A stretch of DNA of 64,000 bases, taken from Pedinophyceae sp. YPF-701 (lineage: Eukaryota; Chlorophyta; Pedinophyceae). The translations under genes and the position numbers were made by a program. Positions within the stretch are counted from its first letter, which is position 1. Each line of letters opens with the position of its first letter. The notes beneath the pieces are model-generated. The model made no database searches and was not told the origin of the DNA. It worked only from the letters and a program-made list of their open reading frames with translations. The DNA lies in the NCBI GenBank assembly GCA_916048055.1, contig CAJZHL010000004.1:1-64000 (forward strand). The letters are read 5' to 3'. Of the stretch, positions 1,897 through 64,000 are shown piece after piece.

Positions 1897-3100
1897 ATGG
1901 AGCTGCGAAGCGGCCGCTGTGTGGTCGGGCCGCGGCCCTCGCAGCGCCCACGCGCCGGTGGCGAGGATGCGCCCACATTCGCCCTGATGGACCTGTCGTT
2001 CGGGCAGCACGGCGGCGCGCTGGCGGAGGTGATCCGCCTCCTGCCGAAGCGGGCGCGCATCAAGCTCGCGGCTGCGTCGTCGGGCGCGATGGCGAGCGTG
2101 CTGGAGAGCTGCGGGGGGGCTCGGTGGACCGCGCACACAAGGGAGGTGGGCAGGACGGTGGCGGGGAAGGTGGAGGGGCGCGTGTACGCGGGGGCGAGAT
2201 CGGTGGTGGGGCGGGCGAGCGACGACGGGCGGTGGCGGGTGTATCGGCGCGCGGGTGCGGACCCCGACAGTGTGGCGGCGATCGTGGAGATTAAGCCTAT
2301 CAACTCGCATCAGGAAGAGGGGCGTGTGGCGAAGGCGCGTCGGCTGGTGATCACGGAGGAGATGACGGGGTTGGAGGGCGTCAGGGCGCCGAGGTGGTAC
2401 TTTGTCAGAGCGTCGTGGTATCTGTTTGACATCGGCGAGGAGTGGGGGGGGGACTGGCTGCCTGCAAGCGTCGCGGTGCGGTTAAAGGAGCTGGACGTGG
2501 AGGGGCAAGGTCTGCGGAGGCTGCCGGGGGGGATGGGGTCGCTGGAGAAGCTGAACGTGAGACTCTGCAAGCAGCTGGAGGGGGAGGGGTGGCTGCCGGC
2601 GTCGAGCTGCGGGAGCGTGAAGAAGCTGGATGCTGCGTACTCGTCATTGGCGAGGCTGCCGGAGGGGATGGCGTCGCTGGAGGCGCTGGACGTGAATTGG
2701 TGCAAGCAGCTGGCGGGGGACAATTGGCTGCCGGTGTCGAGCTGCGGGAGCGTGAAGAAGCTGGTTGCTAGTGGCTCGTCGCTGGCGAGGGTGCCGGAGG
2801 GGATGGGGTCGCTGGAGGTGCTCGACGTGAGCGGGTGCTCGCAGCTGGCGGGGGAGGGGTGGCTGCGGCGTCGGCGGCGGGAGCGTGAAGAGGCTGTATG
2901 CGTGGGAGTCCCCACTGAAGAGGCTGCCGGAGGGGATGGGGTCGCTGGAGGAGCTGAGTGTACTTCGCTGCAGGCGGTTGGCTGCGGGCTGGCTACCGGC
3001 GTCGAGCTGCGGGAGGCTGCGTTATCTGTTGGGCACGGTCTCGCAGCTGAAGATGCTGCCGAAGCAGCAGATGCGGTCCCTGAGATCTCTGTTACGTTGA
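1897..3100 (+). CDS. F-box-like/LRR protein, unit 2 (one frameshift near 2,870)
   Basis: This is the best-preserved unit. The chosen ATG at 1897 begins the block MELRSGRC, which is conserved in units 2-4; an upstream in-frame ATG at 1753 is also kept, so the N-terminus is uncertain. Residues 30-75 contain a hydrophobic helical segment (ALMDL, then VIRLLP, then LAAASSGAMASVLESC) that looks like a degenerate F-box. About 110 residues of unit-specific sequence follow, then about six LRRs starting near 2,480. The frame holds to about 2,865, where GCTGCGGCG replaces GCTGCCGGCG. The last two repeats and the stop at 3098-3100 lie in another frame. The fold suggests an intracellular protein-protein interaction or substrate-receptor role. 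The family is not recognised by name. Confidence 0.55.
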
Positions 3101-4010
3101 GCGATCAGTGTGAGCGCACGTACGAACGTCGACTCTGAGGCCACAACAGGCTGCAAGACAGTCGTCGTTGCACCTAGCTCGCACGCCGCCGACGGTGCGT
3201 GTGTTGACGCCGCGGTGACCCTGGGGTCGGCGTCGGCACCTCGCCCTGCTGTCGCACTCATGGAGTCGCACCCTGCAAACAGTGCAGCCGTGTCCGTGTA
3301 ACACTGCGAGCGTGTGGCGCACATCTGCGCGTGTAGAAGTGCGACTCGTCACGCGTTGGATGATGATGACCCTGGAGCTCAGGCCGGCGGGAAGCGCCTG
3401 CCATGTGCGTCGCGGTGCGTCTTCGATGCCCGTGGTCCGTCCGCTTGGCCGGGTTGTACCCGTTGTCCCCTCGTGGAGGTGTGCAGCGCACACTGTGCGC
3501 ACCCCCCCAACCGTCCCGGGCGGCAGCATGCGACCGCGCCCGCCTCGCACAAGCTCAGTGTGGCTGGCTCGCGACCGGCCGCACATCGGCATCGCGCCGG
3601 GACGACAGCAGGCCGTGCAACTGCTCGTAGCAGGTGAGACGCTGGGCGGTGGTCGCGGGACGCGCTGGCGGTGGCTGGTGCTGATCGCACGGGCGTGGCG
3701 GAGGTGTGAGCTGTCTCGCGGGCTGCCGTGCGAGTCGCATGGAGCGCCCAACGCGGTGCGCACCGCGTGCGTGTCTGGCGCTGGAGGGAGCTCGGCCGTG
3801 AGGCTGCGTTGCGGGGGACCCTTGCTCGGCTGTCACGATGTCGTATGACAGGCACTAGGTGTCATGCGGAGCCCGGCTGCATGCGCGCGCCGGGCGGCTC
3901 TCACAGCTCCCGCTACCTCACCTCCTGGAATCTCTCTCGTTGGCACCCGCAGAATCCATATACGGCGTCCTGGCGACGGCGAGGCATCACGGGCACGATC
4001 TCTGCAGTCG

Positions 4011-5178
4011 ATGGAGCTGCGGAGCGGCCGCTGCGTGGGCGGGCCGCGGCCCTCGCAGCGCCCACGCGCCGGTGACGATGACGCACCCACATTCGCCCTG
4101 ATGGACCTGTCGTTCGGGCCGGGCGGCGGTCCGCTGGGAGACATCATCCGCCTGCTGCCCGAGAAGTCGCGCATCAAGCTCGCGGCTGCGTCGTCGGGCG
4201 CGATGGCGAGCGTGCTGGAGAGCTGCGGGGGGGCTCGATGGATTGCACACAAAAGGGGGGTGGGCAGGGCGGTGGCGGGGAAGGTGGAGGGGCGCGTGTA
4301 CGCGGGTGCGGGATCGCTGGTGGGGCGGGCGAGCGACGACGCGCGGTGGTGGGTGTACCGGCGCGCGGGTGCGGACCCCGACAGTGTGGCGGCGATCGTG
4401 CGGCTGGAGGCCAGGGAGGCGGACCAGGGAGAGGGGCCTGTGGCGGACGCGGGTCGGCTGGTGATCACGGAGGAGATGACGGGGCTGGAGGTCGTCAGGG
4501 CTGAGAGGTGGGACTTTGACATTGGTCGGGAGTGGGGGGGGGACTGGCTGCCTGCAGGCGTCGCGGCGCGGTTGAAGAAGCTGGAGGTGTGGGGGCAAGG
4601 TCTGCGGAGGCTGCCGGAGGGGATGGGGTCGGTGGAGGTGCTCGACGTGGGTGGCTGCGAGCAGCTGGAGGAGGGTGGCTGCCGGCGTCGGCGGCGGAGC
4701 GTGAAAGCTGAACGCTATGTTCTCATCGCTGGCGAGGCTGCCGGAGGATGGGGTCGCTGGAGGAGCTGATCGTGAGCGATTGCAAGCAGCTGGCGGAGGG
4801 TGGCTGCCGGCGTCGAGCTGCGGGAGCGTGAAGAAGCTGTATGCTGCGCGCTCGTCGCTGGCGAGGGTGCCGGAGGGGATGGGGTCGCTGGAGGAGCTTG
4901 TCGTGCGCGGCTGCGAGCAGCTGGCGACGGAGGGCTGGCTGCCGGCGTCGAGCGGCGGGAGCGTGAAGAAGCTGGTTGCTGCGGAGTCGTCGCTGGCGAG
5001 GGTGCCGGAGGGGATGGGGTCGCTCGAGGAGCTCGACGTGCGTTGCTGCGCGCGATTGGCTGCGGGCTGGCTGCCGGCGTCGAGCTGCGGGACACTGCAG
5101 AAGCTGCACGCCACGGTCTCGCAGCTGCAGAGGCTGCCGGAGGAGCAGATGCGGTCCCTGACATCTCTGTTACGTTGA
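4011..5178 (+). pseudogene. F-box-like/LRR protein, unit 3 (frameshifted)
   Basis: Same architecture as unit 2: ATG at 4011 (alternative upstream ATG 3864), F-box-like helix block with VLESC, a linker with the VITEEMTGLE motif, and LRRs from about 4,560. The LRR register changes frame near 4,712 (a two-base loss in the GTGAAGAAG segment), near 4,741 (CGGAGGATGG, G-run shortened) and near 4,798 (GAGGGTGG), then stays open to the stop at 5176-5178. Without correction the protein would end at 4769, after about 253 residues and only two or three repeats. Its spacer and 5' region closely match units 2 and 4. Confidence 0.55.
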
Positions 5179-6124
5179 GCAATCAATGTGAGCGCACGTA
5201 CGAATGTGGACTCCCGGGAGGACGATGCGATGGATCACTGCCGGCGCCCGCCTCGCTCAGCCCTCTGAGACTCAGCAGTGACATCGTCAGGCCACAACAG
5301 GCTGCAAGACAGTCGTCTTGAACGTAGCTTGCACGCCGCCGACGGTGCGCGTTGACGCCGCGATGGCCCCGGAGTCGGCGGTGTCACCGTGCCCTGCTGG
5401 ATGTCGCACTCATGGAGTCGCACCCTGCAAACAGTGCAGCCGTGTCAGGGTAACACTCTACGTGTAGAAGTGCGACTCGTCACGCGTTGGATGATGACGG
5501 CCCTGGAGCTCAGGCCGGCGGGAAGCGCCTGCCATGTGCGTCGCGGTGCGTCTTCGACGCCGTGGTCTGTCAGCGGTCGAGTTGTACCCGTTGTCCCCTC
5601 ATAGAGGTGTGCGCACTCCCCCACCCGTCCCGGGCGGCAGCATGCGACCGCGCCCGCCTCGCACAAGCTCAGTGTGACTGGCTCGCGACCGGCCGCACAT
5701 CGGCATCGCGCCGGGACGACAGCGGGCCGTGCAACTGCTTGTAGCAGGTGAGACGCGGGGCGGTGGTCTCGGAACGCGCTGGCGGTGGCTGGTGCTGATC
5801 GCACGGGCGTGGCGGAGGTGTGCGCTGTCTCGCGGGCTGCCGTGCGAGTCGCATGGAGCGCCCAACGCGGTGCGCACCGCGTGCGTCTCTGGCGCTGGAG
5901 GGAGCTCGGCCGTGAGGCTGCGTTGCGGGAGACCCTTGCTCGGCTGTCACGATGTCACATGACAGGCACTGGGCGTCATGCCGAGCCCGGCTGCATGCGC
6001 GCGCCGGGCGGCTCTCACAGCTCCCGCTACCTCACCTCCTGGAATCTCTCTCGTTGGCACCCGCAGGACCCATATACGGCGTCCTGGCGACGGCGAGGCA
6101 TCACGGGCACGATCTCAGCAGTCG

Positions 6125-7556
6125 ATGGAGCTGCGAAGCGGCCGCTGCGCGGGCGGGCCGCGGCCCTCGCAGCGCCCACGCGCCGGTGGCGAGGATGCGC
6201 CCACATTCGCTCTGATGGACCTGTCGTTCGGGCAGCACGGCGGCGCGCTGGCGGAGGTCATTCGCCTGCTACCCAGGGGGTCGCGCATCAGGCTCGCGGC
6301 TGCGTCGTCGGGCGCGATGGCGAGCGTGCTGGAGAGCTGCGGGGGGGCTCGATGGACGGCACGTGCACGCACAAGGGAGGTGGGCAGGGCGGTGGCGGGG
6401 AAGGTGGAGGGGCGCGTGTACGCGGGGGCGAGATCGGTGGTGGGGCGGACGAGCGACGACGGGCGGTGGTGGGTGTACCGGCGCGCGGGTGCGGACCCTG
6501 ACAGTGTGGCGGCGATTGTCGGGCTGGAGGCCAGGGGGTCGGACCAGGGAGAGGGGCCTGTGGCGAACGCGGGTCGGCTGGTGATCACGGAGGAGATGAC
6601 GGGGCTGGAGGTCGTCCGGGCGTCGCGGCATCATTTTGACATCGCTGAGGAGTGGGGGGGGGACTGGCTGCCTGCAGGCGTCGCGGCGCGGTTGAAGGAG
6701 CTAGTGGTGTGGGGGCAAGGTCTGCGGAGGCTGCCGGAGGGGATGGGGTCGCTGGAGATGCTCGACGTGAGCAAATGCAAGCAGCTGGCGGAGGACGGGT
6801 GGCTGCCGGCGTCGAGCGGCGGGAGCGTGAAGAAGCTGGATGCTTATGACTCGTCGCTGGCGAGGGTGCCGGAGGGATGGGGTCGCTGGAGGAGCTCGAC
6901 GTGGTGGTGCGAAGCTGGCGGCGGAGGGTGGCTGCCGGCGTCGAGCGGCGAAGGCGCTGTGCACTCGTCGCTGGCGAGGGTGCCGGAGGGATGGGGTCGC
7001 TGGAGGAGCTGAGCGTGAGCTGGTGCAAGCAGCTGGCGGAGGGGTGGCTGCGGCGTCGGCGGCGGGGCGTGAAAAGCTGGACGCTGCGCGCTCGTCGCTG
7101 GCGAGGGTGCCGGAGGGGATGGGGTCGCTGGAGGAGCTGAACGTGAGCGCATGCAAGCGGCTGGCGGCGGAGGGGTGGCTGCCGGCGTCGAGCGGCGGGA
7201 GCGTGAGGAAGCTGGTTGTTGTGTTCTCATCGCTGGCGAGGGTGCCGGAGGGGATGGGGTCGCTGGAGGTGCTCGACGTGAGCGCATGCGAGCGGCTGGC
7301 GGCGGAGGGGTGGCTGCCGGCGTCGAGCTGCGGCAGCGTGAAGAAGCTGGTTGCCGGAAGCTCATCGCTGGCGAGGGTGCCGGAGGGGATGGGGTCGCTG
7401 GAGGTGCTCGACGTGGGTGGCTGCGAGCAGCTGACGGAGGAGGGTTGGCTGCCGGCGTCGAGCTGCGGGAGACTGCAGAAGCTGCACGCCACGGTCTCGC
7501 AGCTGCAGATGCTGCCGGAGGAGCAGATGCGGTCCCTGACATCTCTATTACGTTGA
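6125..7556 (+). pseudogene. F-box-like/LRR protein, unit 4 (multiple frameshifts)
   Basis: ATG at 6125 (alternative 5978) opens the conserved MELRSGRC block, followed by the F-box-like segment and linker as in units 2 and 3. LRRs begin near 6,680. At about 6,870 and 6,985 the standard CGGAGGGGATGG is CGGAGGGATGG, one G shorter. Another shift lies near 7,045 at the GCTGCGGCGTCGGCGG variant. From there six repeats run in one frame to the stop at 7554-7556. It is the longest unit, with about ten repeats. The mutation pattern matches units 1 and 3, so either shared conversion tracts or systematic homopolymer errors explain it. Confidence 0.55.
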
Positions 7557-7700
7557 GCAATCAGTGTGAGCGCACGTACGAATGTGGACTCCCGGGAGGA
7601 CGATGCGATGGGTCACTGCCGGCAGCAGCCTTGCATGACCTTCAGCGGTGCCGACGTGAGGCCACAATCGTCTTGAACGTAGCTTGCACACCGCCGACAG

Positions 7701-22567: not shown

Positions 22568-22660
22568 GCGGACCGGGAGCACGCAGACGCATCGATCGCC
22601 GAGCTCTCCTGCCTCAGACCGGCTGCGTCTGCGGCCTGTGCGTCTGACACAGCCGCTGGG

Positions 22661-32800: not shown

Positions 32801-34159
32801 TACGGCGACGGCATCGCGATGGAGGGCCCGAAGTTCCGCCAGATGAACTACGAGGAGATCGTGGCCATGGTGGACCGCCTGCAGGTCCTGGCGCGCTCCA
32901 GCCCCGAGGACAAGTACACGCTCGTGTCGGCGCTCAAGGAGCGCGGCGACGTCGTGGCGGTGACCGGCGACGGCACGAACGACGCGCCCGCGCTCAAGGA
33001 GTCGGACGTCGGGCTCGCGATGGGCAAGACGGGCACGGAGGTGGCCAAGGAGGCCTCGGACATCGTGATCCTGGACGACAACTTCACCTCGATCGTCAAG
33101 GCGGTGCTGTGGGGGCGGAACGTGTTCAACTCGATCCGGAAGTTCCTGCAGTTCCAGCTCACGATCAACTTCGTCGCGCTGACGCTCGCGTTCATCTCGG
33201 CCGTCGCGCAGAAGGGCACGCCGCTCAACGTCATGCAGCTGCTCTGGGTGAACCTCGTCATGGACTCCCTCGCCGCGCTCGCGCTCGCCACGGAGCTCCC
33301 GAACCCCAAGCTGCTCAAGAACAAGCCGTACGGGCGCTCGGAGCCCCTCATCAGCAAGAAGATGTGGAAGCACATTGTCGGCGTCGGCTTTTACCAGCTC
33401 CTCATCATGCTCCTGATCATCTTCATCACGCCCGAGGTCGGCGGCGACTACTACACCATCCCCTCGGAGTGCTCCCTCAGCAACGCGGACGCCCTCGGCC
33501 TCCTCACGGCCCAGGGCGTCTCCCTGGAGGCCGCCGCCGTCATCTCGGAGGGCGACCTGGAGAACGTGCTGACCGTGTCGCTCGAGGACGGCGGCCGCAG
33601 CTACCAGGTCGCGCGCCACGCGTCGGGCTGCATCCAGGTCGGCGGCCCCGACACCGCGGTCTACGCGTCGGGCACGCCCGAGCACGCCGCGCTGTCGCGC
33701 ATGGAGGGCGAGAGCGAGGACGTGTACGAGACGGTGCTGGAGGAGCAGGAGCAGCACACGAACTCGATCGTGTTCAACGCGTTCATCTGGATGCAGCTGG
33801 TGAACGAGCTCAACTCGCGGAAGATCCAGGACGAGCTCAACGTGCTGCAGGGCATCACGCACTCGCCCATCTTCTTCTTCGTGCTCGTCTTCTCCGCGGC
33901 GATGCAGGTGCTCTTCATCATGACGCCGATCAACCAGTTCTTCAAGGTCGTCGAGCAGGACGGCATCGAGTGGATGATCGCCATCCTGTGCGGCCTGGGC
34001 TGCTTCCCGGTGTCCTTCATCCTGCGCCTCTTCGGCAAGTTCGGCAAGGACCCCTCGGAGCTCGAGAGCGGCGAGAGCCGCAAGCACCTCGGACGGGTAA
34101 GCCCTTCGCCGGAGAAGGAGGGCGTCGAGAACGGAAACGGCGTCGCCAACGGCCACTGA
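29880..34159 (+). CDS. P-type Ca2+-ATPase, plasma-membrane (IIB) type
   Basis: Exons 29880-29966, 30382-30466, 30668-30816, 31038-31415 and 31664-34159 give 1,064 residues. Introns 3 and 4 use GC donors. The pump pulls Ca2+ out of the cytosol using ATP. Visible parts are the N-terminal GGLEKVAAKLQTSLDDG, the A domain with SLTGESDPI, the M4 motif PEGLPLA (about residue 329), the phosphorylated Asp in CSDKTGTLT (about 372), the nucleotide domain with NKGASEWVL, and the hinge VTGDGTNDAPALK (about 660). A C-terminal group of spans contains QLLWVNLVMDSLAALALATE. An insertion of about 100 residues rich in Glu and Ser sits in a lumenal or extracytosolic loop near 33,440-33,760, longer than I expect for the family. 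The tail is short, without an obvious calmodulin-binding helix. Confidence 0.93.
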
Positions 34160-35270: not shown

Positions 35271-36781
35271 ATGAACTCAACCGCGGACTCGAACTCTCAG
35301 GATCCTGCTCGGACGCACCAGAACGGGAGCGGCGACCGCGAGCGAGGGGGCCCCGCCCAGGCCCAGGCCGCCCTCCCAGCAGGCTCGCGCGTTGGTCCCG
35401 ACCGGGGGCGCTACCTCATCGTCCGGAAGATCGGCTCGGGGTCCAGCGCGACGGTGTATCGCGCGTTCGACACTCGGGACCAGCGCACCGTGGCGATCAA
35501 GCTGGTGCGCTCCCCATGGGTTCGGAAATTTTTAGAGAAGGGATTCCGGCTCTGCGAGTGATGTTGCGGCCCTCGTTGTTGCAGTTCGACATTCGGGAGG
35601 CGAGTCAAGGGACGGAGAAAGGGCTGACGCTGCGATCGAAGCTCGCGCGCGAGATCGCTATCGGCCGCGAGTGCGGCACCATGGACTGCGTTGTGAGGCT
35701 CGAGGAGTGCTTCGTCCAGGGCGACCTGCTCGCCCTCGTCATGGGTAAGATCGACGGAGAAACGTTTTCCGTGCGAGTCGACAGGAACGCTGGCCTGTCT
35801 TCCTGCACCCTTCCTTGCGTACGTGGCAAAAACACAGTGTTGTTTGTTTGTGGCCGATCAGAGTTCGTCGACGGCGAGGACCTGCTCGCATGCATCAACA
35901 GACACGACCGGCGGCTCGGCGAGAGCCTTGCTCGCCACTTGTTCCGGCAGCTCTGTGGCGCGGTCGAGAGCCTCCACGCCTCACAACTGTGCCACCGCGA
36001 CATCAAGCCGGAGAACGTGAGACTCCCCCCACGACTCCCTGACACACACGCACCGTTGTGCCCCTACCGCTTCGCACCAACGCCGAAGAACTTTGCCACT
36101 CCCCCCCTTCCCCACGCGGAGACTCCACTAACGCCAACGGCGTGCAGATCCTGATCGAATACGGGACGTATCGACTCAAGATCTGCGACCTCGGACTCTC
36201 CAAGCACATCCAGGTGCGAGCGCGGCGCCCGCGCGACCGAGTGCAGGCGGGTGAAGCTCGCCCTCGCTGAACCGCGTATAAATAAATAAAACCACGGCGC
36301 TGCATGCAGTCGGCGGTGACTCTCGGCATCGGCACGCCCGGGTACCTGGCCCCGGAGCTGATCATCGCCACCGAGGACGCACCGCGTCAGGGCCAGTACG
36401 ACGCGATGAAGGCCGACGCGTGGGGCGTCGGCGCGAGCCTGTACCTGATGGTGGCGGGCTGGTATCCGTTCTCCTCCCCAACCGAGGGGGCGCACAACTC
36501 ATCCCGCGCCATCGCCAGCACCCTGCGCAACCAGGTGCGCCGCGCGTCCGACACCGACTCGAACACCGAATATCAGCCCGCCAACACCGACCACTGGGGG
36601 ACCCTGTGTGCGTGGGTGGCTGCAGGTGGCGGGCAGGATGCGGCCGCTGCCGGAGCCTCTGCGCGGGTCCCCCGTGGAGGACCTCATCAAGCGGCTGCTC
36701 GAGCCCGACCCGCGGAAGCGAGCGAGCATCGCCGAGGCCATCGCACACCCGTGGACGCAGAGCGCGACGGAGCAGGGGTAG
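35271..36781 (+). CDS. Serine/threonine protein kinase (CAMK/SnRK-like) with DLG motif
   Basis: Six exons, 35271-35504, 35585-35744, 35862-36016, 36148-36213, 36310-36534 and 36626-36781, all close in phase for 331 residues. After a 45-residue Gln/Gly/Ala-rich leader comes a minimal kinase domain: glycine loop IGSGSSATVY (54-63), ATP-binding Lys77 in VAIK, the alpha-C Glu in LAREIAIGRE, catalytic HRDIKPEN (176-183), DLG in place of DFG (197-199), and activation segment TLGIGTPGYLAPE (209-221). The C-lobe follows with DAWGVGASLYLMVAGWYPF and a final HPW. All catalytic residues are present. The overall pattern resembles CAMK and plant SnRK2/3 kinases. There is no regulatory tail. Its 3' end faces the PP2C gene 221 bp away. 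Confidence 0.88.
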
Positions 36782-37002
36782 GGAGCTGGGCGCGCGAGAG
36801 CGCTCACATTCGGCGGCACTCGCCGCCATCGAGCGCGCGCGGACGACCCTGCGGTCGCGGCGCGCAGCATCTTGCAGGAGAGGGGGGGGTTGAGGCCCGG
36901 GCGCGCGCAGGACGCCCGGTGCCAGCGCCACCCGGCGGAAAAACGCGCTTCATGAAATATAGCAGGACGCGCGGTGTCGCGGTCGCGGTCGCGGTCGCGG
37001 GC

Positions 37003-38656
37003 TCACTCGAACTTGAACACCACGGCGATCGCGGAGATGTTGTCGCCGCTCCCGCGCTTGTACGCCTCATCCACCAGCGTCTTCGCCGCCTCCTTCGCGT
37101 CCCCGACCTTCCGCACCGTCTCCACCGCCTCCTCGTTCGTCATGACGTCCCACAGCCCGTCCGACGCCAGCACCAGGCACTCGTCCTTCTTGCTCAGCTC
37201 CTCCGTCGCCACCTCCGGCTCCGCCACGACGAACTTCTTCAGCATCTTGTCGCCGAACGCCCGCGACACCGCGAGCACGCCGCCCACGCGCCACGTCCCC
37301 GCCCACACCACCACCCCGCCGAGCCCCTCGATGCGCGACCGCTCGTCGCTCCGGTTCGGCTTGTGGTCGTCACTCAGCGCCACCGCCTCGCCCTCCCGCG
37401 ACAACACCGCGCGCGAGTCGCCCACGTGCGCCACGTACAGCGTGGACCCCTGCGCGGAGCGCAGCACACGCGCGGCGTCGGCACCCGGCAGACCGCGAGG
37501 ATTGCACACGCAACAACAAACATGTTTTGAAGAACCTTTGTCCAACCGAACGATAGGGCGAGCAGCGTCCCGCGCAGGCCGGCGCGCTGCGGTGGCGTGG
37601 GCGCGGTGCGGCGCGCACCTTGACGACGGCGATGACGGCGGTGCACCCGTCGTCGCGCTCCTCCCCGTTCTGTTCGAGATACTCCTTGTCCGTCTTGAGG
37701 AACGAGTCGACGATCGCGCCGGGGACGTCCGTCTGGAACTTTGGACTCTTGAGCAGGTTGCGGAAGAGGTGCTCCTTGACGAACTCCGCCGCGGCGCTGC
37801 CTCCGTGCCCTGCAGGTGCGGGGGCGCGCGTGCAGGGGCGTGAGGGGAGGGGCGCGATCGAAGTTGCGCTCCGGCGGTCTGGTATGGAGCGGGGAAGGGG
37901 CTGAGAGGGTACGGGAGGTCGCGGGCGCGACGAGGGGGCGTGGAGTGGCATCGGGCAAACACAACGTTGCGGACTCTGCGAGCGTGCGGGCGAGCGAGGG
38001 CCCGCACCGTCGTACACGCCGAAGCATCCGACCTGCTCCCCGGAGTGCGCCTCCCGCACGAACCCCGCGTAGTGAAAGTCCTCCATCGTGGTCCGTTTTC
38101 CCCGCATCAAACCCCACCCAAAGGAAACCTTGCCGTCGTCTCTGCACGCCCCACGACGTGCGCGAAGGTCTCGTGTGCTCTTCCGCAGATACGCGAACTA
38201 AGCGGGGGGATCGCTGCGGATCCCTCGGCCCGCACGCACATTCAACGGGCGCCGGCAGAGTGGTTCGCCCCTGGGCAGGGCCGCGCGCGCACGCGTGTCG
38301 CGGGCAGGGCGCGGGCGCGTGCGCGACGGGCGACATGGGACCGCTGAGGAGGACGTCATGCGGGGCCGAAAAAGAAGCGAGGGCAGTGCCCCTGGCACGG
38401 CGCAGGAGGCAGGAGAGAGCAAACGAGCAGCCCAGCGCGCCGGCGCAGGCGTCCGTTGGAATAAGCGAGCGGCCGGTGCAGAAAACGGAACTTCCTAGAA
38501 AGTCCAGCCGAAACCCGGCGCGGTCGCCCTCCGAGAAGGACACACCCGCGCGACACAGCCACGGACCGCTCCCTGCTCGCACCTACTGTTTCCGCCCGCC
38601 TGCACCGCGTCGCCGCTCCCGTCCCGCGAGCCCATGAGCCCGCTGAGGAAGCTCAT
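37003..38656 (-). CDS. PP2C-type protein phosphatase
   Basis: Exons run from 38656 to 38583, 38141 to 38008, 37809 to 37619 and 37449 to 37003, for 281 residues. The domain starts about residue 30 ([16 protein letters not shown]). The Mg/Mn-binding residues are all there: YDGHGG (formed across a splice), SDGLWDV and SGDNIS. Other PPM motifs are [14 protein letters not shown] and VSRAFGD. It removes phosphate from Ser/Thr in cytosol or nucleus. It is a compact single-domain enzyme close in size to plant PP2Cs lacking regulatory extensions. The short first exon encodes [13 protein letters not shown]; a Gly at position 2 for myristoylation is absent. Convergent with the kinase gene, so overlapping 3' transcripts are possible. 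Confidence 0.92.
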
Positions 38657-51800: not shown

Positions 51801-54104
51801 TCACGGAGCACGCGATGCAGGCGTACAGCGACGCGCTGTTCGCGGGCTCCGCGCACGACCTCGCGGGAGCCTTCGGATGGTGCCGGCTGTGGCTGAGCCA
51901 CCCGCAGAGCGCCGAGGTGAACCGGCTGGCGCGGGACGCGTGCAGCCACACCCCCACGCACAAGCTCGTGCCGCTCGCGTACCAGGTGCGCCGCACGCCG
52001 TGCCACTGCCTGCGTGGCGACATCTCAATCGAGGCCGCATATCTGGCGGTGGTTTTTCTCACGTGTCTGAACGCAACCCCGGCGCCGACGCAGGTCGCAT
52101 CGCGCATATCGAACGTAGACAACGATAACTTCCCGGGCTTCCAGGACGCGATCTCGCACATGATGCGCGGCATGCTCCTGGACCACCCCCACCACGTCGC
52201 GTACCACCTCCTGTCGTTGGCCAACGGACTGCGCGACCACGGCGGACGGGAGGGCTCGCCGTCCGGGACGCAGCTGGTCGGCGGGATGCAGCGCGTCGTC
52301 GACGAAAGCAAGGTCGCGGGCGCGAAGCGGATCCTTGCCGCGTATTGCAACCCAGCGCAGGCGAGCTCTCCCGCCGCGGTAGCGTGTCTCCGTTCGTCGG
52401 CGCCGACGCAGGGATCGCGACGAGGGCTTTGTTCTCGCCGTCGTTGCAGGTGTCGCCGGATGCGGAGCGAAGGGCGAAGACGGCGTATCTGCAAGAGGTG
52501 CTTGGGCAAACCAAGAGGCTGGTGGACGCGTACATTCGCCTGGCGGCGGCGGACCCAGAGAAGACCTCGGTCGTTCCCTCGGCGATATGCCGGGACGTCC
52601 GCGACCTCGACAAGGTGCCCGTCGTGTCGATGAACCTCCCGCTCGACCCGCTGTGCCGCTACCTGCGCGCCGACGGGCCGAGCGGGGCGCCCAGCGAGGC
52701 GGTCACCTTCGAGCGGTTCGAGAGCAAGGTGTCGCTCGTGGGCGGCATCAACAAGCCCAAGCTGATCGCCGTGCGGGGCTCGGACGGGCGCCTGCACAAG
52801 GAGTTGATCAAGTCGGGCAACGACGACCTGCGTCAGGACGCCGTCATGACGCAGATCTTCCGGCTCGTCACGGAGCTGCTCGCTCAGGACAAGCACAGCG
52901 CCTCCACGGGGCTGCGCATGCAGGCACGCCCACACACACGCGCCAATGCTGCGTACGTTGCACTGTTTGTTTCTCCTGTTCCTCGCTGCAACTCCCGAGC
53001 CTGCGCGGCGCCCGCTGCAGACGTACAAGGTCGTGCCCTTCACGCCGCACGCGGGCCTCGTGGAGTGGATCAACCAGTCGACGCCGCTGAGCGAGTGGCT
53101 CCTGGGGCCCGACCGGCGCCACGGCGCGCACCTGCGGTACAAGAAGCCCGGGCAGTGGTCGTTCGGGCAGTGCCTCAAGGTCATGCAGGACGCCCTCGGG
53201 AACCCGGACACGCAGCTGGCCAGCTTCGCGCGCTGCTGCAGAAACTTCCCGCCGGTTCTGCGGTACTACTTCCTGGAGACGTTCCGGGGGCCGACGGAGT
53301 GGTTCACGCGCCGCCAGGCCTTCGTGCGGTCCGTCGCCGTCGCGTCCATGGTCGGCCACGTCGTCGGGCTCGGCGACCGGCACTCGGCCAACATCCTGCT
53401 CCTCGACAACTCCGCAGAGGTGCGCTGCCCGCCGCCCCGCGGCACCGACGCGCTGAACGCGCTCCGCAGCACCGCGTGGCATCGGCCGCCTCCGACGCAG
53501 CGTCCACGCCCCCGCCCCCGCGGCCATATATCAATTTCATACCTTTGTGTGTGGCAAAACTATCCAGGTGGTGCACATCGACCTCGGGATCGCGTTCGAG
53601 CAGGGCAAGTTCCTCAACACGCCGGAGCAGGTTCCGTTCCGCCTCACGCGGGACATCGTCGACGGCATGGGCGTCCAGGGCGTGGAGGGGTCGATGCGGC
53701 GTTCCAGCGAGAAGGTGATGTCGGTCCTGCGGGCCTCGCGCAGCCTGCTGTCGACCATCCTCGACGTGTTCCTGCACGACCCGCTGTACAACTGGACGCT
53801 GACGCCGGTCGACGTGGCGCGGCGGCAGCACGACGAGGGCAGCGACGACGAGGCGGAGGAGGCGCGGTGGGCGAGCAGGGAGGTGGGGGGCGGGGCGTTC
53901 GCGGGGGCGGAGGGGAACAAGAGCGGGGGCAGCGCGGACGCGGCGCGGGCGGTGCTGCGCGTGCGGGCGAAGCTGGAGGGGCGGGAGTTTGGGGAGGGGG
54001 TCGAGGGGCGCAGCGTGGAGGGGCAGGTGCAGCAGCTGATGGCGGACGCGCAGGACCCGCAGAAGCTCGCGCGGATGTTCTTCGGGTGGGCGCCGTGGGC
54101 GTGA
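42812..54104 (+). CDS. ATM: ATM, DNA-damage checkpoint PIKK kinase
   Basis: Twelve exons: 42812-43024, 43260-43347, 43543-43795, 43966-44252, 44362-48201, 48316-48674, 48820-49100, 49207-51985, 52094-52360, 52450-52923, 53021-53419 and 53568-54104. All phases close, giving about 3,258 residues (human ATM is about 3,056). Residues 1-40 contain a TAN-like motif (LSSGRAKERKEGLKSL), the ATM/Tel1 N-terminal signature. A long alpha-helical HEAT and FAT solenoid follows. The kinase domain starts about 2,880 (GGINKPKLIAVRGSDG, DDLRQDAVM), with the catalytic loop GLGDRHSANILL and HIDLGIAFEQG. The activation region reads VPFRLTRDIVDGMG, and a FATC domain ends KLARMFFGWAPWA. It phosphorylates SQ/TQ sites after double-strand breaks in the nucleus. 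The DLG, LTRDIVDGMG and FATC choose ATM over ATR or DNA-PKcs. The intron after 52923 has a GC donor; the exon 9 donor may be GC at 52361 or GT at 52379. Confidence 0.93.
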
Positions 54105-55230
54105 GGCGGCGCGGGGGCGCTCTGGACGCATGCGCGGTGCGTGGCGGAACTGCAGGGGGGGACTGCGACAACAGGAGGGGGGACTGCGCGGTCGGATGTA
54201 CATATGGAGGCGGGATTCGGGAGAGAGAGGTGCATGAAGACGACGGCGCGCATGACGCGTTCTTGCATTTATTCCTACCACGCAGTCGTGCGTAGTGGCG
54301 CACAATCAAGTAGGCGAGAGGTGACGCAGCAGCGAGCTGTTACGCCGAGCAAGCCGCCCTCGCTCTGCTCTTGCTTGCTCCGCCCGCCCTGCCTCGCAGC
54401 ACACTGCGCCCCGCGCCTTCCATCGACGATGCTGTCAGCGATGGCGAACACACCACTGAGGTGCGTGGTTGCGTGTCGCTCCCGCCACGGCCCTCGCAGG
54501 ACCTGTGTCGCGAGAGACCGGCGGCAACGTCAGCGGTGAGGCGGCTGGCCGCATGTCTGTCGGGCCCGAGCCCTCTCCAAACTTGTTCGTCGCACCGCTG
54601 CTGGGTGCGCTCTTCTCGCGCCGCGGGGTCCGGGATGTCCCGCGCGCGCCACCGGGCTCGAAGCACGCGACTCTGCTGGCGTCCCTCGTGCCGCAGTTCC
54701 CCCGTGTACGAGACGCACGGGCTTGACGCTTGCCAGAGGCCCCCCAGGTACTTTGGGCGCGCTTGTCTGGCGTGATTGGGGCCCCGTGCCGCTGCGCGCG
54801 ACCATGCGTGGCGCGGATCTGACATCTACCAGCGCCGACACGACGCTCTGGTACCGTGCGACTTCAGGTGAGCGGTTCGCCGCCTCTGCCTCAATAGTGA
54901 GGCCGTGGTGTCGATTCTGTGCGTGATACGACGTCAACCGTCTTGCGCGAGCGAGAAACCTCCCAAAAATAATCGAGTGTGGATGCAGTGTTGTTCTCAG
55001 CGTTCGTTCACGCTCTCACGCGTGCCCACCCCGCGCTTTTTTTGTGCAGGTGGTTTCGTCGGCGTCGCGCGGCACCCACTTACTTTTCCAGCCACCACCG
55101 CTCACGGTAGCGGTTAATCTCGATCACTGAAGCGCGGAGAAGGCTGGATCGAGTCTTCGGCAGCGCCAGGACTCGCTGGTCTAGTAGGTGCACCAGCCGT
55201 TCGAGTGCGTCGCGGGCAAGAACAGGCGAC
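54105..55230. other. Intergenic, ATM to LRR pair
   Basis: 1.1 kb without a supported gene. The last 200 bp, with TCTCACGCGTGCCC and a GTGCAGG block before the ATG, resemble the region upstream of the second LRR gene near 58,100-58,200, so the tandem duplication included upstream DNA. Confidence 0.55.
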
Positions 55231-57421
55231 ATGAGCGGGCAAGAGGGCCACGACTTGCAGCAGGTGACAGACGCGCAGCCTGGACGCTCGCCGTCAACCG
55301 CAGTGATCAAAGGTTGCCCAAACCTCGCGCTCACAGACCTCCCGCCAGCACGCCCCGCCCGAGCTCGACGTGCATTCCTGCCGCACGACCGCCGCAGGGT
55401 GGTGAAGCGAGCGGCGCCGTGACGACCCTATTTGAGAGGGTGCTGTGGGAGGCGTCTGGCGTGGTTGAGAAGCTACCTGACCCCGACAAGAAGAGTCTGA
55501 TGGCGGCGAGCTGGAGCGCGCTCGAGGCGGTGGTGCGGAGCTGCGACGCGACGCTGGACCTGGACTGGGTCGACTTCGACGCGAGGCTGGAGATCGACAG
55601 GGTCTATCATCCGCGGCTCACTGCACTGCCATCAGCACTTGCTCGGCGGCTACGTGCTGGTCAGTGCAGAGGGCAGGTCCGCGCCGGGGGCGTCGGGGTG
55701 GCGATGACGGACGCGGAAGCGCTGGTGGAGGCGCTGCAGCGCGTGCCGCCGCCGCCGCACCGCGGCTCGTTTGGTCCAGACGCTTCGGGGATTTCCACCA
55801 ACTGGGTGTTGTTCGTGTGGCAGCTCATCGACGCGGCGCCGCAGACGGAGGCGGGTCCGATCAGCGTGACGGCACTAGTCATGCCCGGGTTCGGATGCGG
55901 ACCGGAGGGGCTGCGCGAGCTGCGGGCGGTGCTGGTGCGCCCTGCGGTGCGGGACAACCTGCGATCGTTGAGCATGAAGCTCGTAGGGGACACGGCCGCG
56001 GCCGCGGAGCTGCACGGGAGCCTGCGGGGAACGGGAAAGCTGCGGAGCCTCACGGTGTGCGGGATCGAAGAGTGGCTTTGGCAGGGTTACCTTTGGGCCC
56101 AGAACAATTCCACCGAGTGCCGCTGCAGTCGTGCGCTGGCCAAGCTGATGTGCGAGTGCGCGTTCGTGGAGCGGGTGGAGCTAGAGCATCTGAAACTCGG
56201 CGCATCGAAGGCTGCTACGTTCCAGATGACGCACGAGACATCCTTGATCGGCGGTTTGCATCGGGCAACCCGCTGCGGCACCTGAGGGTGCTTGACGCGA
56301 CTCCAGTCTACACCCCAGGAGGAAGCCACCCGTCTGCGCTCATGAACCGCGCATGGAAGGGGATTGCCAACTTGGAGCACTTGTCGCTGTGTTGGCACAC
56401 CATGGAATGGCAGGAAGAGAACGAGGCGCTCGCGCGGCTGCTGCTGACTACGACTACGCTGCAAAGGCTGGATGTGGCAGCGTGGCACTTATACGACTGG
56501 AACGGGCTGTCGACGATCCTCGCGGCACTGGGCAACAACAAGACGGTCGAGGTGGCGCACCTCCAGGTCGAGGCAGCGCGCGACCTGCTTTTCGACCCGG
56601 CCACCATCCGCGCGCTCGCGGCGGTGCTGCGCAGCAACAGCACCTTGAAGGAGCTGCGAGTCACGGGGGACGGATATTACAACGATTTTCAAGTTGATGA
56701 GGAGGCAATGGAGGGGATGATGGTCGACAAGGATGCCCGCGAGGCGGCCGTGCGCGAGTTCTCCCAGGCTCTGGGCGCCAACACAACACTCGAGACCCTC
56801 GCGCTCCCCAGCAACGGATTCGGCCACGACATAGGACTTCGTGTCGTCAACATTGCACGCAATCGCACGCTGCGACACGTGCACCTCACGGTCTCGAATG
56901 GGTCCCACGATGGCGTACGGAACATGACGCGGGCTTTCGCCCACGTGACGAGTCTCCGGTCGCTCGTCGCCCACGTTGTACAGGATGCGCAGGCCTCGGC
57001 CCTGATCAATGGGCTGTGGGGCAACAAGGCCTGCAAGAGCCAGGTCCAGCGTCTCAAACTACAGTCAAGCGGGCGTCTGTCGTGCGAGGTCGCGCAGAGG
57101 CTTGCAGACTTGCTAGCCATGGAGCAGTGCACACTCCAGGAGCTGGACCTCGAGCGGACCGACTTCGGAGCAGCAGGGACGCGGGCGCTGTTCGAAGCGC
57201 TGAGGGTCAACACGTCGCTGGTGGCGCTGACTGTCCGCTGGGCTGACATCACGGAGGAGGGCGTGATGGCGCTGCTCAGTGCGCTGCGAGTCAACACGAC
57301 GCTGCGCTGGATGAGGCTGCACGGCCCCCTCTATCGCGAGAATAAGCTGTCCGCGTCGGCGAGGGAGGCGCTGAGGCGGGTGCACGCGCACGTGGCACTC
57401 TTGGGCAAGTGGGGCTCGTGA
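55231..57421 (+). pseudogene. Ribonuclease-inhibitor-type LRR protein, copy 1 (frame broken)
   Basis: A short first exon (55231-55263, MSGQEGHDLQQ) is followed by an intron and a second exon from 55398. The frame is open to about 56,200. The N-terminal 60 residues contain an F-box-like helix block (VVEKLPDPDKKSLMAASWSAL), then LRRs with motifs such as ALRVNTSLVALTVRWADI. Compared with copy 2, about 61 bp are lost near 56,200 (between the LELGAD-type and DILDRRFESGNPL-type segments), shifting the frame; the rest of the protein continues in another frame to the stop at 57421. Read without correction it ends at 56285. Codon bias persists after the break, so the lesion is recent, or the region is misassembled. 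Role as in copy 2. Confidence 0.65.
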
Positions 57422-58330: not shown

Positions 58331-60616
58331 ATGAGCGGGCGACACGAGAGCCACAGGGTGCACAAGGTGAGAGGCGCACGCCAGGCCCCCGCGGACGCAC
58401 GCAGTCGCACGCAGTCAGAGAAGGTTGCCTCCCAACACAGACTCGCACAGCGCTGGACTCGCTCGCGCGAGAAAGCCCGCCTGCTGAGCTCTGGTCGCCT
58501 CCCTGCCCCACGGCTGTCGCAGGGCGGGGAAGCGGGCGGCACCACGGCGGCCGCGGCGCTGTTTGAGCGCGTGTTGTGGGAGGTGCCCGGCGTGGTGGAG
58601 CGGCTTCCCGACAGCGACAAGACGAGCCTGCTGGCGGCGAGCTGGGGCGCGCTCGAGGCGGTGGTGCGGAGCTGCGACGTGACGCTGGACCTGGACTGGG
58701 GCGACGCAGGCCACCGCCTCGAGAGGGCTCTCAGCGGCGACGTCGATCATCCTCGGCTCACTGCACTGCCATCAGCAATGGCGCGGAGGCTACGTGCTGG
58801 TCAGTGCAGAGGACAGGTCCGCGTTAGGGGCGTCGGGGTGGCGATGACGGACGCGGAAGCGCTGGTGGAGGCGCTGCCGCGCGCGTACCCGCCGCCCCCC
58901 CGAGTGTTGTCCGGGTACTGGGTGCAGTTCGTGTCGCGGCTCATTGACGTAGTGTCGGAGACGGCAGCGGGCCCGATGCGCGTGACGACGCTGGTCATGT
59001 CCGGGTCGGGGTGCAGGGCGGACGAGATGGGCGAGCTGCGGGCGGTGCTGGCGCGGCCTGCGGTGCGGGACAACCTGCGGTCGTTGAGCCTGGTGGTGTT
59101 CGACAACCTGGCCGCGGAGCTGCACGGGAGCCTGCGGGGGATGGAAACGCTGCGGAGGCTCACGGTGCACGGACGGGCAAGATCCGTGGGCGGCGTGGAT
59201 CGACATTACATGCGGTGCAGCCCTGCGCTGGCCACGTTGATGTGCGAGTGCGCGTTCGTGGAGCGGGTGGAGCTCCGGAACCTCGAGCTCGGCGCGGACA
59301 CTGTGGAGATGGTCCTGGACTGGCTGGCGGCACCTACGCCTCTGCGGCACCTACGCCTCGACGGCTGCGATGTCGGCGATGATGCACTTGACATCCTTGA
59401 TCGGCGGTTTGAATCGGGCAATCCGCTGCAGCACCTGAGGGTGCTCGACGCGAATGTTTATCAGGAATGGAACCGCGACTGCGGCCCGTCAACCCTGATG
59501 GACTGCGTGTGGAAGGACGTGCCGAACTTGGAGCGACTGTCGCTGTTGTACGACACTCTCAACTGGCAGGAAGAGAACGAGGCGATCGCGCAGATGCTAC
59601 GGACGACGACTGCGCTGCGGCGGCTGGATGTCGGAGCACATCACGTCGCTGGGCACGACTTTATTTCGGCCGAAGAAAGCGTGAAAGAGGTGGCGAGGAT
59701 CGTCGCCGCGCTGGGGGACAACAAGACGGTCGAGGTGGCGCGCTTCCGGATGGCAGACGACCTGCGCGCCTGTGCGGGCATCATCACGGCGTTCGCGGCG
59801 GCTCTGCGGAGCAACAGCACCTTGAAGGAGCTGTGGCTGGAGGAGGACTGGGAACAGTGCTCTGGTCGAAGGGTCGAGATCACGGCCGACGAGGACGCCT
59901 ACGCGGCGGCGGTGCAAGACCTCTTCGACGCTCTGGGCGTCAACACGTCGCTGGAGACCCTGGTACTCCCCCACAGTTGCGGCCGCGGGGTTGTCACCCT
60001 CGCCGGGACATTCGGCACCGGCATGGCGCGCAACCGCACGCTACGGCATCTGGAGCTCCCGGGGACGTGGAACTTGTCTTGCGACGGCGTGCTGCAGATG
60101 GCAAGGAGTATCGCTCACGTGGAAAGTCTTCGCTCGCTGTCAGTTGATCTGAGGGACGCCGCGCAGGTCTGCGCCTTGATTGATGGGCTGTGGGGCAACA
60201 AGGACTGCAGAAGCCAGCTCCAGCGCCTCCGGCAAGGTGGCGTAGGTCTAGAGGGCGGACTCGCACGGAAGTTGGCAGACGTGCTAGCCCATGAGCAGTG
60301 CACACTCCAGGAGCTGGACCTCGAATGGACCGACTTCGAAGCAGCAGGGACGCGGGTATTGTTCGAGGCGCTGGGGGTCAACACGTCGCTGGTGGCGCTG
60401 AACGTCTGCGTCAGGGGCAATGCAGGCAAATTCACGGAGGGCGGCATGATGCCGCTGGTCAGTGCGCTGCAAGTCAACACGACGCTGCGCTGGATGAACC
60501 TGACGTATTCTGACGGACGCAACATCCCCCCAGCGGTGACGGAGGCGCTGAAGCGTGTGCAGGCGCACGTGGTGCATTCGAGATATATCCCTGAACCTGA
60601 TGAAGATGAAGATTAG
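58331..60616 (+). CDS. Ribonuclease-inhibitor-type LRR protein with F-box-like N-terminus, copy 2
   Basis: Proposed exons 58331-58366 and 58523-60616 give 709 residues. The 156-nt intron contains no stop, so an unspliced 761-residue form could also be made. The N-terminus has FERVLWEVPGVVERLP followed by LLAASWGALEAVVRSCD, resembling a degenerate F-box. A run of LRRs of about 28 residues follows, of the NLR/RNI subfamily: LRHLRLDGCDVGDDAL, LERLSLLYDTLNW, NSTLKELWL, NTSLETLVLP, NRTLRHLELPG, CTLQELDLEWTDFEAAG and NTSLVALNV. The protein is intact, soluble and likely cytosolic or nuclear. An SCF substrate-receptor role is inferred only from layout. A TGTAA lies about 17 bp after the stop and may be a poly(A) signal. 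Confidence 0.8.
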   Translation: MSGRHESHRVHKVRGARQAPADARSRTQSEKVASQHRLAQRWTRSREKARLLSSGRLPAPRLSQGGEAGGTTAAAALFERVLWEVPGVVERLPDSDKTSLLAASWGALEAVVRSCDVTLDLDWGDAGHRLERALSGDVDHPRLTALPSAMARRLRAGQCRGQVRVRGVGVAMTDAEALVEALPRAYPPPPRVLSGYWVQFVSRLIDVVSETAAGPMRVTTLVMSGSGCRADEMGELRAVLARPAVRDNLRSLSLVVFDNLAAELHGSLRGMETLRRLTVHGRARSVGGVDRHYMRCSPALATLMCECAFVERVELRNLELGADTVEMVLDWLAAPTPLRHLRLDGCDVGDDALDILDRRFESGNPLQHLRVLDANVYQEWNRDCGPSTLMDCVWKDVPNLERLSLLYDTLNWQEENEAIAQMLRTTTALRRLDVGAHHVAGHDFISAEESVKEVARIVAALGDNKTVEVARFRMADDLRACAGIITAFAAALRSNSTLKELWLEEDWEQCSGRRVEITADEDAYAAAVQDLFDALGVNTSLETLVLPHSCGRGVVTLAGTFGTGMARNRTLRHLELPGTWNLSCDGVLQMARSIAHVESLRSLSVDLRDAAQVCALIDGLWGNKDCRSQLQRLRQGGVGLEGGLARKLADVLAHEQCTLQELDLEWTDFEAAGTRVLFEALGVNTSLVALNVCVRGNAGKFTEGGMMPLVSALQVNTTLRWMNLTYSDGRNIPPAVTEALKRVQAHVVHSRYIPEPDEDED

Positions 60617-60970
60617 CTGTGATGCGCACTGTTGTTGTAACATTTGTCTTTCTCGTTGTCCCTCCCCATTCGACTGACAATGCACATCCCCAAGCCGGCA
60701 AGCAAGCACCCGCTGCCGCCGCGAGTCCCGTCAGCACACATCCCGCAGGGTGTTGCTGCGCCTGCTCCCCGCGGAGCCGTGCTCCCCTACCACGGTGGTC
60801 ACACCGCGCAGCCGTGGTCACAGTGTGACCTCAGGTGTGGTACGTTTGTCTCTCCTGCATGTTCAATACACCGCGCGCTGGTGGATGCGTGCGTGACCGT
60901 CTTCCCGCGCGCCCCATCACGCCCGCGCGACGCTCTCCGCAAACCACGAGTCCACCGCTCACACGCCGGC
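60617..60970. other. Intergenic between convergent stops
   Basis: 354 bp between the LRR stop and the stop of the TPR protein on the other strand. No gene is visible. TGTAA near 60,634 may serve the LRR transcript. Confidence 0.45.
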
Positions 60971-62821: not shown

Positions 62822-63110
62822 CGCGCCTCCTGCTCACGGAATTCCCCTCAATGTCCAGCCCCCCTTGACAGACGAAATACGAGATCTCTCCGTACGGTGA
62901 ACGGCACGTGATCGACGCTGGCGGTCGGAACTGCGGGCGGGTGCGTGTTTCGTCGCAATTCAGACCCGGAGTTCGGACAGCGGGGCCTGTGACCTCTCAT
63001 GGGGGTCTCCTGGCGCGCCCGACGGATGCGACGTCAGGGGCGGGGAGGGCCGCGGCGCGCGAGATGGCTCAGGAGGAGAGCGGGCCGCGAACGGCGTCCA
63101 GTGAAAAACC

Positions 63111-64000
63111 ATGGCCCCCCGCAGGAAAGCGCGGGGCAGGTCGCTGCAGCTGGGGACCATGGGAGGCGCCCACTCGAAGAGCCGCCGCACCTCGTCGGCC
63201 TCGGGCGTCGAGACGATAGAGGCGAGGCTGGAGAAGAGGAAATACGCGCTGATGGACCTACCGGTGGACCTCATCATGCAGGTGACGGCACCAATCACTG
63301 TCGGACTCAACAGCCGCGCCCGCGGTCGACCGAGACCGAGCGATGCTAGGGTTTGCGCATTCTGTGCTCTGTGTATCCATCAAACACATCCTATCGTTTC
63401 GGCACCTCGAAAGTGCCTTGTATGCTGAGCACCGGCGCTGGTGGTTGAGGACACTCGATCCGTGATTCCAAGGCTCTTCCGTCCTCCGACTGCAGCACAT
63501 ACTCCCGCACCTGACTCTCGAGGACCTCGGACACGTCGTGCTGGCCTCGCGGCGCCTCAGGGAGATCGCGGAGCAGGTGGGAGGCCGTCCAACTGTGTAC
63601 ACTCGCAGCAGGATCTCCCGCGATTTCCTCGCAGCCCGTCCAACGACTCCGCGAACTGCACCGTGATTCCGCGTTGAATCAGTCGTCGCCATCGAACCCT
63701 GCTCGATGTGCTCGTACGTCGGTCGCGGCATTCGCCGCCTCGGGTGGCATCATCATCTGCGTGTGTGTGCTTGTCGACTTCATCGCAGGCGGACGCGGCG
63801 TGGGCCGGAGCGTTCGCGAAGAAGTTCGGCGGCAACGTCAACTCCGACGTCGTGCTCAAGCGCGCCGCCGAACTCGCCGGCGGTACGCACCCAGCATCAC
63901 CGCCGCATGCAACATGGAATCTCAACTCAAATTGCATCCAACAAACACACCGGATTGCCGGCTCACCCCGGCTCCGCGCGACGGCACAAGCGCCCCCGTC
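63111..64000 (+). CDS. F-box protein, 5' part (runs off window)
   Basis: Exons 63111-63281, 63496-63576 and 63789-63882 join in phase, and the intron after the third continues past or near the window end. The first 45 residues are basic and Ser-rich. Residues 47-84 form a canonical F-box: KYALMDLPVDLIMQHILPH, then LTLEDLGHVVLASRRLREIAEQ, created precisely by joining exons 1 and 2. Exon 3 (ADAAWAGAFAKKFGG, then a VLKRAAELAG helix) follows the box like the first segment of many F-box proteins. An alternative ATG is 63159. F-box proteins bind SKP1 and recruit substrates to SCF ubiquitin ligases. The substrate-binding domain lies outside the window. Confidence 0.75.

Follow-up and report, generated by a model that had tools for sequence, protein, structure and literature searches.

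The F-box carries the motif LxxLP, its hallmark, at the start of the first helix. In SCF substrate receptors of the FBXL type, such as FBXL2 with SKP1 (PDB 6o60), an N-terminal three-helix domain is followed by an LRR solenoid. Among the 18 plant genomes for which counts are given in PMC3030570, Arabidopsis thaliana is listed with 897 F-box loci and Chlamydomonas reinhardtii with 88, the lowest of the set, and the low algal number was taken there to tie F-box expansion partly to multicellular or land life.

Akinorimonas japonica (Pedinophyceae sp. YPF-701) is a unicellular green alga with a genome of 27.9 Mb in 32 contigs, and this study focused on the start of its contig C4. The window, meaning the whole stretch of 64,000 nucleotides that was analysed, carries LRR genes in a left and a right arm and an F-box gene at its right end. 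From sequence comparison and structure prediction, we conclude that the LRR genes encode F-box-derived LRR proteins, which probably are, or formerly were, SCF receptors.

Genes of the Window

All genes described here lie on the forward strand. The first left LRR gene (1753..3138) is an open frame whose LRR part shifts frame near 2865, while the second (3864..5178) and third (5978..7556) have N-terminal open frames reaching to 4769 and 7012, followed by frame-disrupted LRR parts; a change of reading frame in the LRR part is common to all three. Their candidate F-box-derived domains occupy 1981..2112 (assigned by motif, profile comparison and AlphaFold2 (AF2) helices), 4095..4226 and 6209..6340 (both by motif and family match). 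ALMDL, at 1981, 4095 and 6209, and LAAASSGAMASVLESC were found in all three genes, and VIRLLP in two, the second gene having IIRLLP instead. Ahead of them, positions 1..963 hold the C-terminal LRR part of an additional left-type gene, truncated by the contig start and with an interrupted frame. A 135-base tandem repeat spans 1-878 of this fragment, and its repeat unit and C-terminal end are, by eye, those of the next left genes.

The first right LRR gene (55231..57421, ATG at 55231) is made up of frames 55188-56285 and 55664-57421, with an intron placed by eye ahead of the F-box-like exon; the domain (55416..55557) was assigned by family match and alignment, and the stretch near 55.4-55.6 kb reads VVEKLP...LMAASWSALEAVVRSC. 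The second (58331..60616) is a single open frame of 761 aa with LRRs of the RI/NLRP type, has VVERLP...LLAASWGALEAVVRSC at 58592-58675, and carries a domain at 58541..58675, assigned by profile comparison, in which the first helix is remodelled.

Exon 1 of the F-box gene (63159..63281) ends in ...ALMDLPVDLIMQ, exon 2 (63496..63576) reads HILPHLTLEDLGHVVLASRRLREIAEQ, and a probable third exon lies at 63789..63882, all borders being set by eye, those of the first two from GT/AG; the gene probably extends past the window end. Its motif, ALMDLPVDLIMQ joined to HILPH...VVLASRRL (63246-63558), is formed only once the GT-AG intron 63282-63495 is spliced out, after which the gene matches the Pfam F-box-like model with E 6.8e-5 and 23.0 bits, just missing the cut-off of 24.3. 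The motifs quoted for the three kinds of gene in an earlier, sequence-only reading were therefore all recovered, that of the F-box gene after splicing.

Family Size and Distribution

Both LRR families were tandem-expanded, with 141 left-type and 78 right-type places genome-wide when exon-level matches less than 600 bases apart were merged, or 219 in total, so that the large family postulated from the window alone was borne out. The F-box-like part was matched in 138 of the 141 left and 74 of the 78 right places (query ranges, counted by hand), and three of the remaining four right places showed it in a separate search, giving 215 of 219. The LRR places are about 11 times as many as the 19 matches of a genome search for F-boxes, a count that rests on the two Pfam models PF00646 and PF12937. 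SKP1 matches were found at three places in the genome and long cullin matches at three loci. The two arms had been described as flanking a conserved gene core, a position that turned out to be nothing special because family members occur on 27 of the 32 contigs.

Relationship of the N-Termini to F-Boxes

Direct searches with F-box models found little. No Pfam F-box model matched the three left frames of the window or right gene 2 up to E 10, a null result limited by the HMMER filters, which discard most weak matches; right gene 1 lacked its F-box-like exon in this first scan, and the exon was scanned afterwards. Among 47 left family N-termini, PF00646 matched four (best E 0.0091) and PF12937 three (best E 0.0077, a match that scores under the curated cut-offs judging from the bit scores of similar matches), while neither model matched any of 30 right N-termini, both window genes included. 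No left or right window gene reached the curated cut-off. The single Pfam scan was not taken as final, because the per-member scans and profile-profile comparison showed more. Run against PDB sequences, neither the left nor the right profile retrieved an F-box chain. A bridge-gene profile collected mostly LRR proteins from the PDB through many weak LxxLP repeats, likewise without an F-box chain, and its result was discarded; these false matches show that LxxLP is also part of the LRR consensus.

Profile comparison gave a clearer picture. The three N-terminal patterns fit one alignment register, with short gaps only near the start of helix 1, which confirms the earlier proposal that the three kinds of gene share an N-terminal pattern. 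In hhalign, left and right N-termini matched each other with a probability of 95.8 (E 6.6e-9), and the 20 F-boxes of this genome with 68% (left) and 47% (right); in each case none of 200 column shuffles scored as high, the shuffle control covering the full F-box set with L091 and L093 included. Scores against the F-boxes were 25.8 for left and 22.8 for right, and all of 92 LRR-region slices from the same proteins stayed at or below 12.1. One comparison used half-sets of the F-boxes that were both cut from one alignment, which is a favourable bias.

The link runs largely through a few bridge genes, in which an F-box is joined to the LRR unit of the left genes. Stepwise, recognised F-boxes matched the bridge genes with 94% and the bridge genes the left N-termini with 98%, values never reached by shuffles, and right N-termini matched the bridge genes with 85%. 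The Pfam F-box is just above the cut-off in L109, just below it in L105, and lower still in the others. L105-L108 were chosen through their match to L074 and L109-L112 through their match to L093, so that selection contributes to the scores of L105-L112 with the left profile; for L085-L103, a Pfam F-box match was the sole ground of choice. Leaving L091 and L093, of the bridge family, out of the F-box set lowered the left value to 29% (68% with them) and the right value to 36% (47% with them). The near left clade, which holds the window left genes, reached 8% against the F-boxes alone and 1.6% without these two. The left window genes are thus connected to recognised F-boxes by way of the bridge genes, the direct comparison being weaker, and the right genes by way of the left N-termini, the bridge genes and the Pfam F-box gene L093 (E 0.001 with the right profile, over the F-box and next strand), less strongly than the left. 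Members with as little as about 25% identity (A3) still show helices 2-3 and the A/S/L core in recognisable form. As judged by these comparisons and the structure models, the N-terminal 40-45 residues of the proteins in both arms share ancestry with F-boxes, the connection being made by F-box/LRR genes that the genome still contains. An F-box-derived N-terminus is supported for all three kinds of gene, with a weaker case for the right. A single F-box/LRR superfamily, as first proposed, therefore holds for the N-terminus common to both arms but not for the LRR class, which differs: a left LRR profile gave at most 5.2 bits on the five right proteins tried.

Motif Erosion and Predicted Structure

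The canonical F-box had been read as eroded in the LRR arms, and the LP motif is indeed absent from most left copies: LxDLP is kept in five of 47 left N-termini, and the window left genes have LMDLSFG at this position. Right N-termini, aligned gap-free, have RV where LP is expected, and an L-x-D/E-L/I/V-P string (e.g., LREVP) occurs about five residues later in 19 of 30, which could be the LP itself, the helix being shortened. In a simple NG86 count on GC-biased codons, dN/dS in the near left clade was 1.00 for the F-box-like part and 0.97 and 0.69 downstream, so not lower in the F-box-like part, and in the right family the F-box-like part was more constrained than the following sequence; given that method, a value near 1 is no proof of neutrality.

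The AF2 model of left gene 1 has predicted helices at residues 17-25, 28-37 and 39-48. Residues 21-50 have a pLDDT of about 93, and the first 20, which include the start of helix 1, one of 65-70. For right gene 2, helices were predicted at 2-14, 17-20, 24-33 and 35-44 with lower confidence (pLDDT 63-80); helices 2-3 are kept and the first is split at a proline. A three-helix fold was thus predicted for the left N-terminus, and for the right only in part. An LRR solenoid follows the F-box-like domain. Foldseek with the left model listed no F-box protein among 50 of 419 matches, because the LRR solenoid takes up the matches listed. In the VIA list for this model, FBXL2 (6o60_C) has one row, aligned from first to last residue and equal in Z to unrelated LRR rows; FBXL17 has two, beginning at model residues 52 and 94, while two rows of LGR4 likewise extend into the helices, one from residue 33 and one from residue 37. 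The right N-terminus was hardly probed by the fold search.

Discussion

On balance, sequence and models favour the view that both arms encode lineage-specific F-box/LRR (FBXL-like) proteins, multiplied in tandem, that would act as putative SKP1-docking receptors. The expansion of the family is clear; the ubiquitin role is one that we infer. The F-box-like N-terminus leads into the LRR solenoid, whose surface would bind varied client proteins, the degenerate F-box would dock on one of the SKP1 copies of the genome, and a cullin ligase would then ubiquitinate the client. The most derived members, namely the window left genes without LP and the right genes with the remodelled first helix, may dock weakly or have become specialised for a divergent SKP1.

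In a different reading, the N-terminus descends from an F-box and SKP1 binding was lost, the proteins being free LRR binders or scaffolds with the helices as a solenoid cap. The rarity of LxDLP on the left, the split first helix of the right model, the few and weak Pfam matches, and a dN/dS in the near left clade that is close to 1 and does not drop below the downstream values all fit such a loss, but we consider it somewhat unlikely, given the persistence of helices 2-3 and the A/S/L core to about 25% identity, the stronger constraint on the right F-box-like part, and the SKP1 matches at three genome places.

It is improbable that much of the left arm is a pseudogene or relic array making no working proteins. 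Besides the dN/dS near 1 and the frame changes in all three window genes, 20 of the left-type places, out of the closest 28, have open frames no longer than 416 aa; however, the frame changes resemble, by eye, shortened runs of G or of C in near-identical repeats, a pattern of long-read consensus errors, the other eight places have frames of 466-872 aa, the rows of clusters C10, C20 and C31 mostly have frames of about 420-770 aa, and right gene 2 has its one intact frame of 761 aa. It is highly improbable that alanine-rich, GC-rich proteins arrived by convergence at an amphipathic three-helix LRR cap unrelated to the F-box, for although the window left and right proteins have no direct F-box model match and LxxLP occurs in LRRs too, genes combining a Pfam-scored F-box with left-type LRRs exist, and the observed scores are attained neither by composition-preserving shuffles nor by slices of LRR regions.

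If the proteins are SCF receptors, a bolder and, in our view, unlikely extension is that they form an innate-immunity-like or self-recognition repertoire: around two hundred genes, most of them in tandem and those of the right type crowded at contig ends, pairing a fast-changing LRR surface (NLR-type or of repeat units) with a streamlined, LP-less F-box for one of several SKP1 paralogs.

Like FBXL2, the left LRR proteins of the window have a predicted three-helix domain ahead of an LRR solenoid. Unlike it, the window LRR genes of both arms have no Pfam F-box match and no clear LP, their LRR class differs between the two arms, and their link to SKP1 is putative. Within this one genome the domain grades from a canonical F-box to an eroded form, which suits study of the minimum needed for SKP1 docking. 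Compared with LRR proteins of the NLRP/ribonuclease-inhibitor type, the two right frames scanned with Pfam had no NACHT/ATPase domain, and an F-box-like N-terminus stands in its place. The large family and its tandem duplication recall the lineage-specific F-box expansions of plants, from which it differs in belonging to a single-celled alga whose genome spans 27.9 Mb, in F-boxes too diverged for Pfam, and in its relatives: with about 8,000 candidates sharing words scored per query, a protein database gave 2, 4 and 4 matches per query, or eight distinct proteins, of which six are labelled as this alga and two, P0002 (E 3.6e-4) and P0008 (E 4.9e-10), are unnamed proteins on short contigs. An F-box-derived LRR family of this size in such an alga would oppose the link of F-box expansion to multicellularity or land life and, if so, F-box counts based on profiles can overlook entire receptor repertoires.

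Results

The sequence-only reading had proposed that the LRR genes of the two arms of the window share an F-box-like N-terminal pattern with a recognisable F-box gene, and the motifs it quoted are present in the window sequence. The F-box-like domains of the three left LRR genes start at 1981, 4095 and 6209, those of the two right LRR genes lie at ~55.4 kb and ~58.5 kb, and the F-box gene begins at 63.16 kb, its motif carried across two exons (intron 63282-63495). An additional left-type gene (1-963) is incomplete, truncated at the contig start. The region between the arms encodes a P-type cation ATPase (30830-34159), a protein kinase fragment (36304-37530, below cut-off) and a PI3/PI4-kinase domain (52946-54295). 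Each of the three left genes shows frame changes in its LRR part (2860-3100, 4680-5180 and 6880-7100), at sites which by eye resemble shortened G or C runs within near-identical repeat units; they reflect either pseudogenes or long-read consensus errors. Open frames are at most 416 aa in 20 of the 28 closest genome copies of these genes.

Pfam scans of the window LRR frames, with right gene 1 entered without its F-box-like exon, returned weak LRR and unrelated matches only, an F-box being absent even at E 10. Nor was an F-box model listed for any of 30 right N-termini, both window genes included, while among 47 left N-termini PF00646 matched four (best E 0.0091) and PF12937 three (best E 0.0077). 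The spliced window F-box gene itself scored 23.0 bits with F-box-like, narrowly below the cut-off of 24.3. A further entry, PF27087.1, is precomputed by the database on two relatives of the right genes (P0001 and P0002), and was not listed for them by the Pfam version used here. Since the window LRR genes of both arms lie below the curated F-box score, and the left ones do not conform to the LP motif of helix 1, they are not classed as canonical F-box proteins.

The aligned N-termini (47 left, 30 right) were also compared by hhalign with 20 aligned F-boxes from the same assembly, of which 19 are Pfam-hit loci and one is the window F-box gene. Left and right N-termini matched each other at 95.8% probability (E 6.6e-9), and the F-boxes were matched by the left N-termini at 68% (E 4.7e-5), the right at 47% (E 2e-4), and 18 more distant left members at 81%; in these four comparisons none of 200 column shuffles equalled the real score. 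The left subgroup containing the window genes (near left clade) reached only 8% when taken alone, yet scored higher than its 200 shuffles. A further control used 56-column slices cut from these proteins' LRR regions: none of the 92 exceeded 12.1 against the F-boxes, compared with 17-28 for the real N-termini. Two halves of the F-box set, both taken from one alignment, scored ~79 against each other, which by this measure places the LRR families far from canonical F-boxes.

A few bridge genes carry an F-box N-terminus together with the left-type LRR unit. Searching with a single sequence, the N-terminus of the left-type gene L074, matched 126 places at E ≤1. Among these were all three left genes of the window and a right-family gene (E 0.057); on contig C1 they also included the Pfam F-box gene L091 (E 0.075) and the adjoining bridge gene L105 (E 0.035). 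L093, the sister of L091, matched its close relatives L105, L110, L111 and L112 at E values between 1.8e-5 and 1.9e-4, and left-family genes at E 0.04-0.09. These four relatives and L109, a longer stretch of L093, have LLDLP-type or LLP F-boxes; L109 passes PF00646 (20.7, cut-off 20.5), L105 lies 0.3 bits under that threshold, and scores of 13-14 were obtained for L110 and L111. Downstream, the bridge genes share the repeating unit of the left genes (WLPxSS...LP.gm..L..L.v..C), and the left LRR profile scores 94-324 bits on L105 and L109-L112, as against ≤5.2 on five right-family proteins. The shared N-terminus and LRR unit thus indicate that the left family is related to F-box/LRR genes in both parts.

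With L091 and L093 taken out of the F-box set, the F-boxes matched an alignment of seven bridge N-termini at 94%, and the latter matched the left N-termini at 98% and the right at 85%, scores that none of 100 shuffles reached. Direct F-box scores were then lower, 29% for the left N-termini as a whole and 36% for the right; within the left family, the distant members gave 59% and the near clade 1.6%. The argument for F-box ancestry therefore depends on the bridge genes. The right family is joined to the F-boxes by two links, the left N-terminus and L093. The latter ranked among the best matches of the right profile outside the right family, over the F-box plus the next strand (E 0.001; 4,735 ORFs searched). 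Two more F-box-like genes, L106 (C13:702496) and L107 (C13:536029), combine LPD with the left-type LAAT/MATS signature; their Pfam F-box matches are below cut-off, and their domains look intermediate between canonical and left-type.

The expanded family proposed in the earlier reading was borne out by a genome-wide count, with 219 LRR places (141 left-type, 78 right-type) on 27 of 32 contigs, compared with 19 matches to PF00646 or PF12937, none of them overlapping. The places are merged exon-level matches and the counts are lower bounds; by a hand count of query ranges, 215 include the F-box-like part. Same-type neighbours in clusters share orientation (80/80 left and 34/34 right pairs), and the biggest arrays hold 22 places (C20) and 21 (C10). 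Right-type places lie within 50 kb of a contig end in 35 of 77 cases, against ~10% expected, an enrichment as for a subtelomeric family; the corresponding figures are 13/141 for left-type places and 10/29 for the nearest left-type copies.

Discussion

The main result is an N-terminus that, from the profile steps via bridge genes, appears to be F-box-derived in three gene kinds, as the sequence-only reading inferred, and this is well supported for the left family and reasonably for the right; the window LRR genes are accordingly read as F-box-derived. In the likely mode of action, the F-box-like helices would dock on SKP1 and the LRR surface would likely bind client proteins. Partners for an F-box are present, as SKP1 matches occur at three places (C7:180031, C5:760852 and C15:68335) and long cullin matches at three loci. 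By eye, one SKP1 copy is canonical and two are divergent, possibly a diversification of partners alongside receptor expansion. Client binding is supported by the architecture and, for the right family, by faster change behind the F-box-like part, where median dN/dS is 1.00 and 1.17 as opposed to 0.70 over that part itself. Counting against SKP1 docking are the loss of LP from most left genes (LxDLP is retained in 5 of 47 left N-termini), a remodelled helix 1 in the right family, and a near left clade dN/dS of 1.00 over the F-box-like part, with downstream parts no faster (0.97, 0.69).

Strain YPF-701, a small flagellate unicellular green alga, is now named Akinorimonas japonica (PMC12574857), and its assembly comprises 27.9 Mb in 32 contigs; the window covers the first 64,000 bases of contig C4. 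In the paper collection searched, none dealt with both pedinophytes and F-boxes. Chlamydomonas (112 Mb) is credited with 88 F-box loci (PMC3030570). The window LRR genes may work like FBXL receptors.
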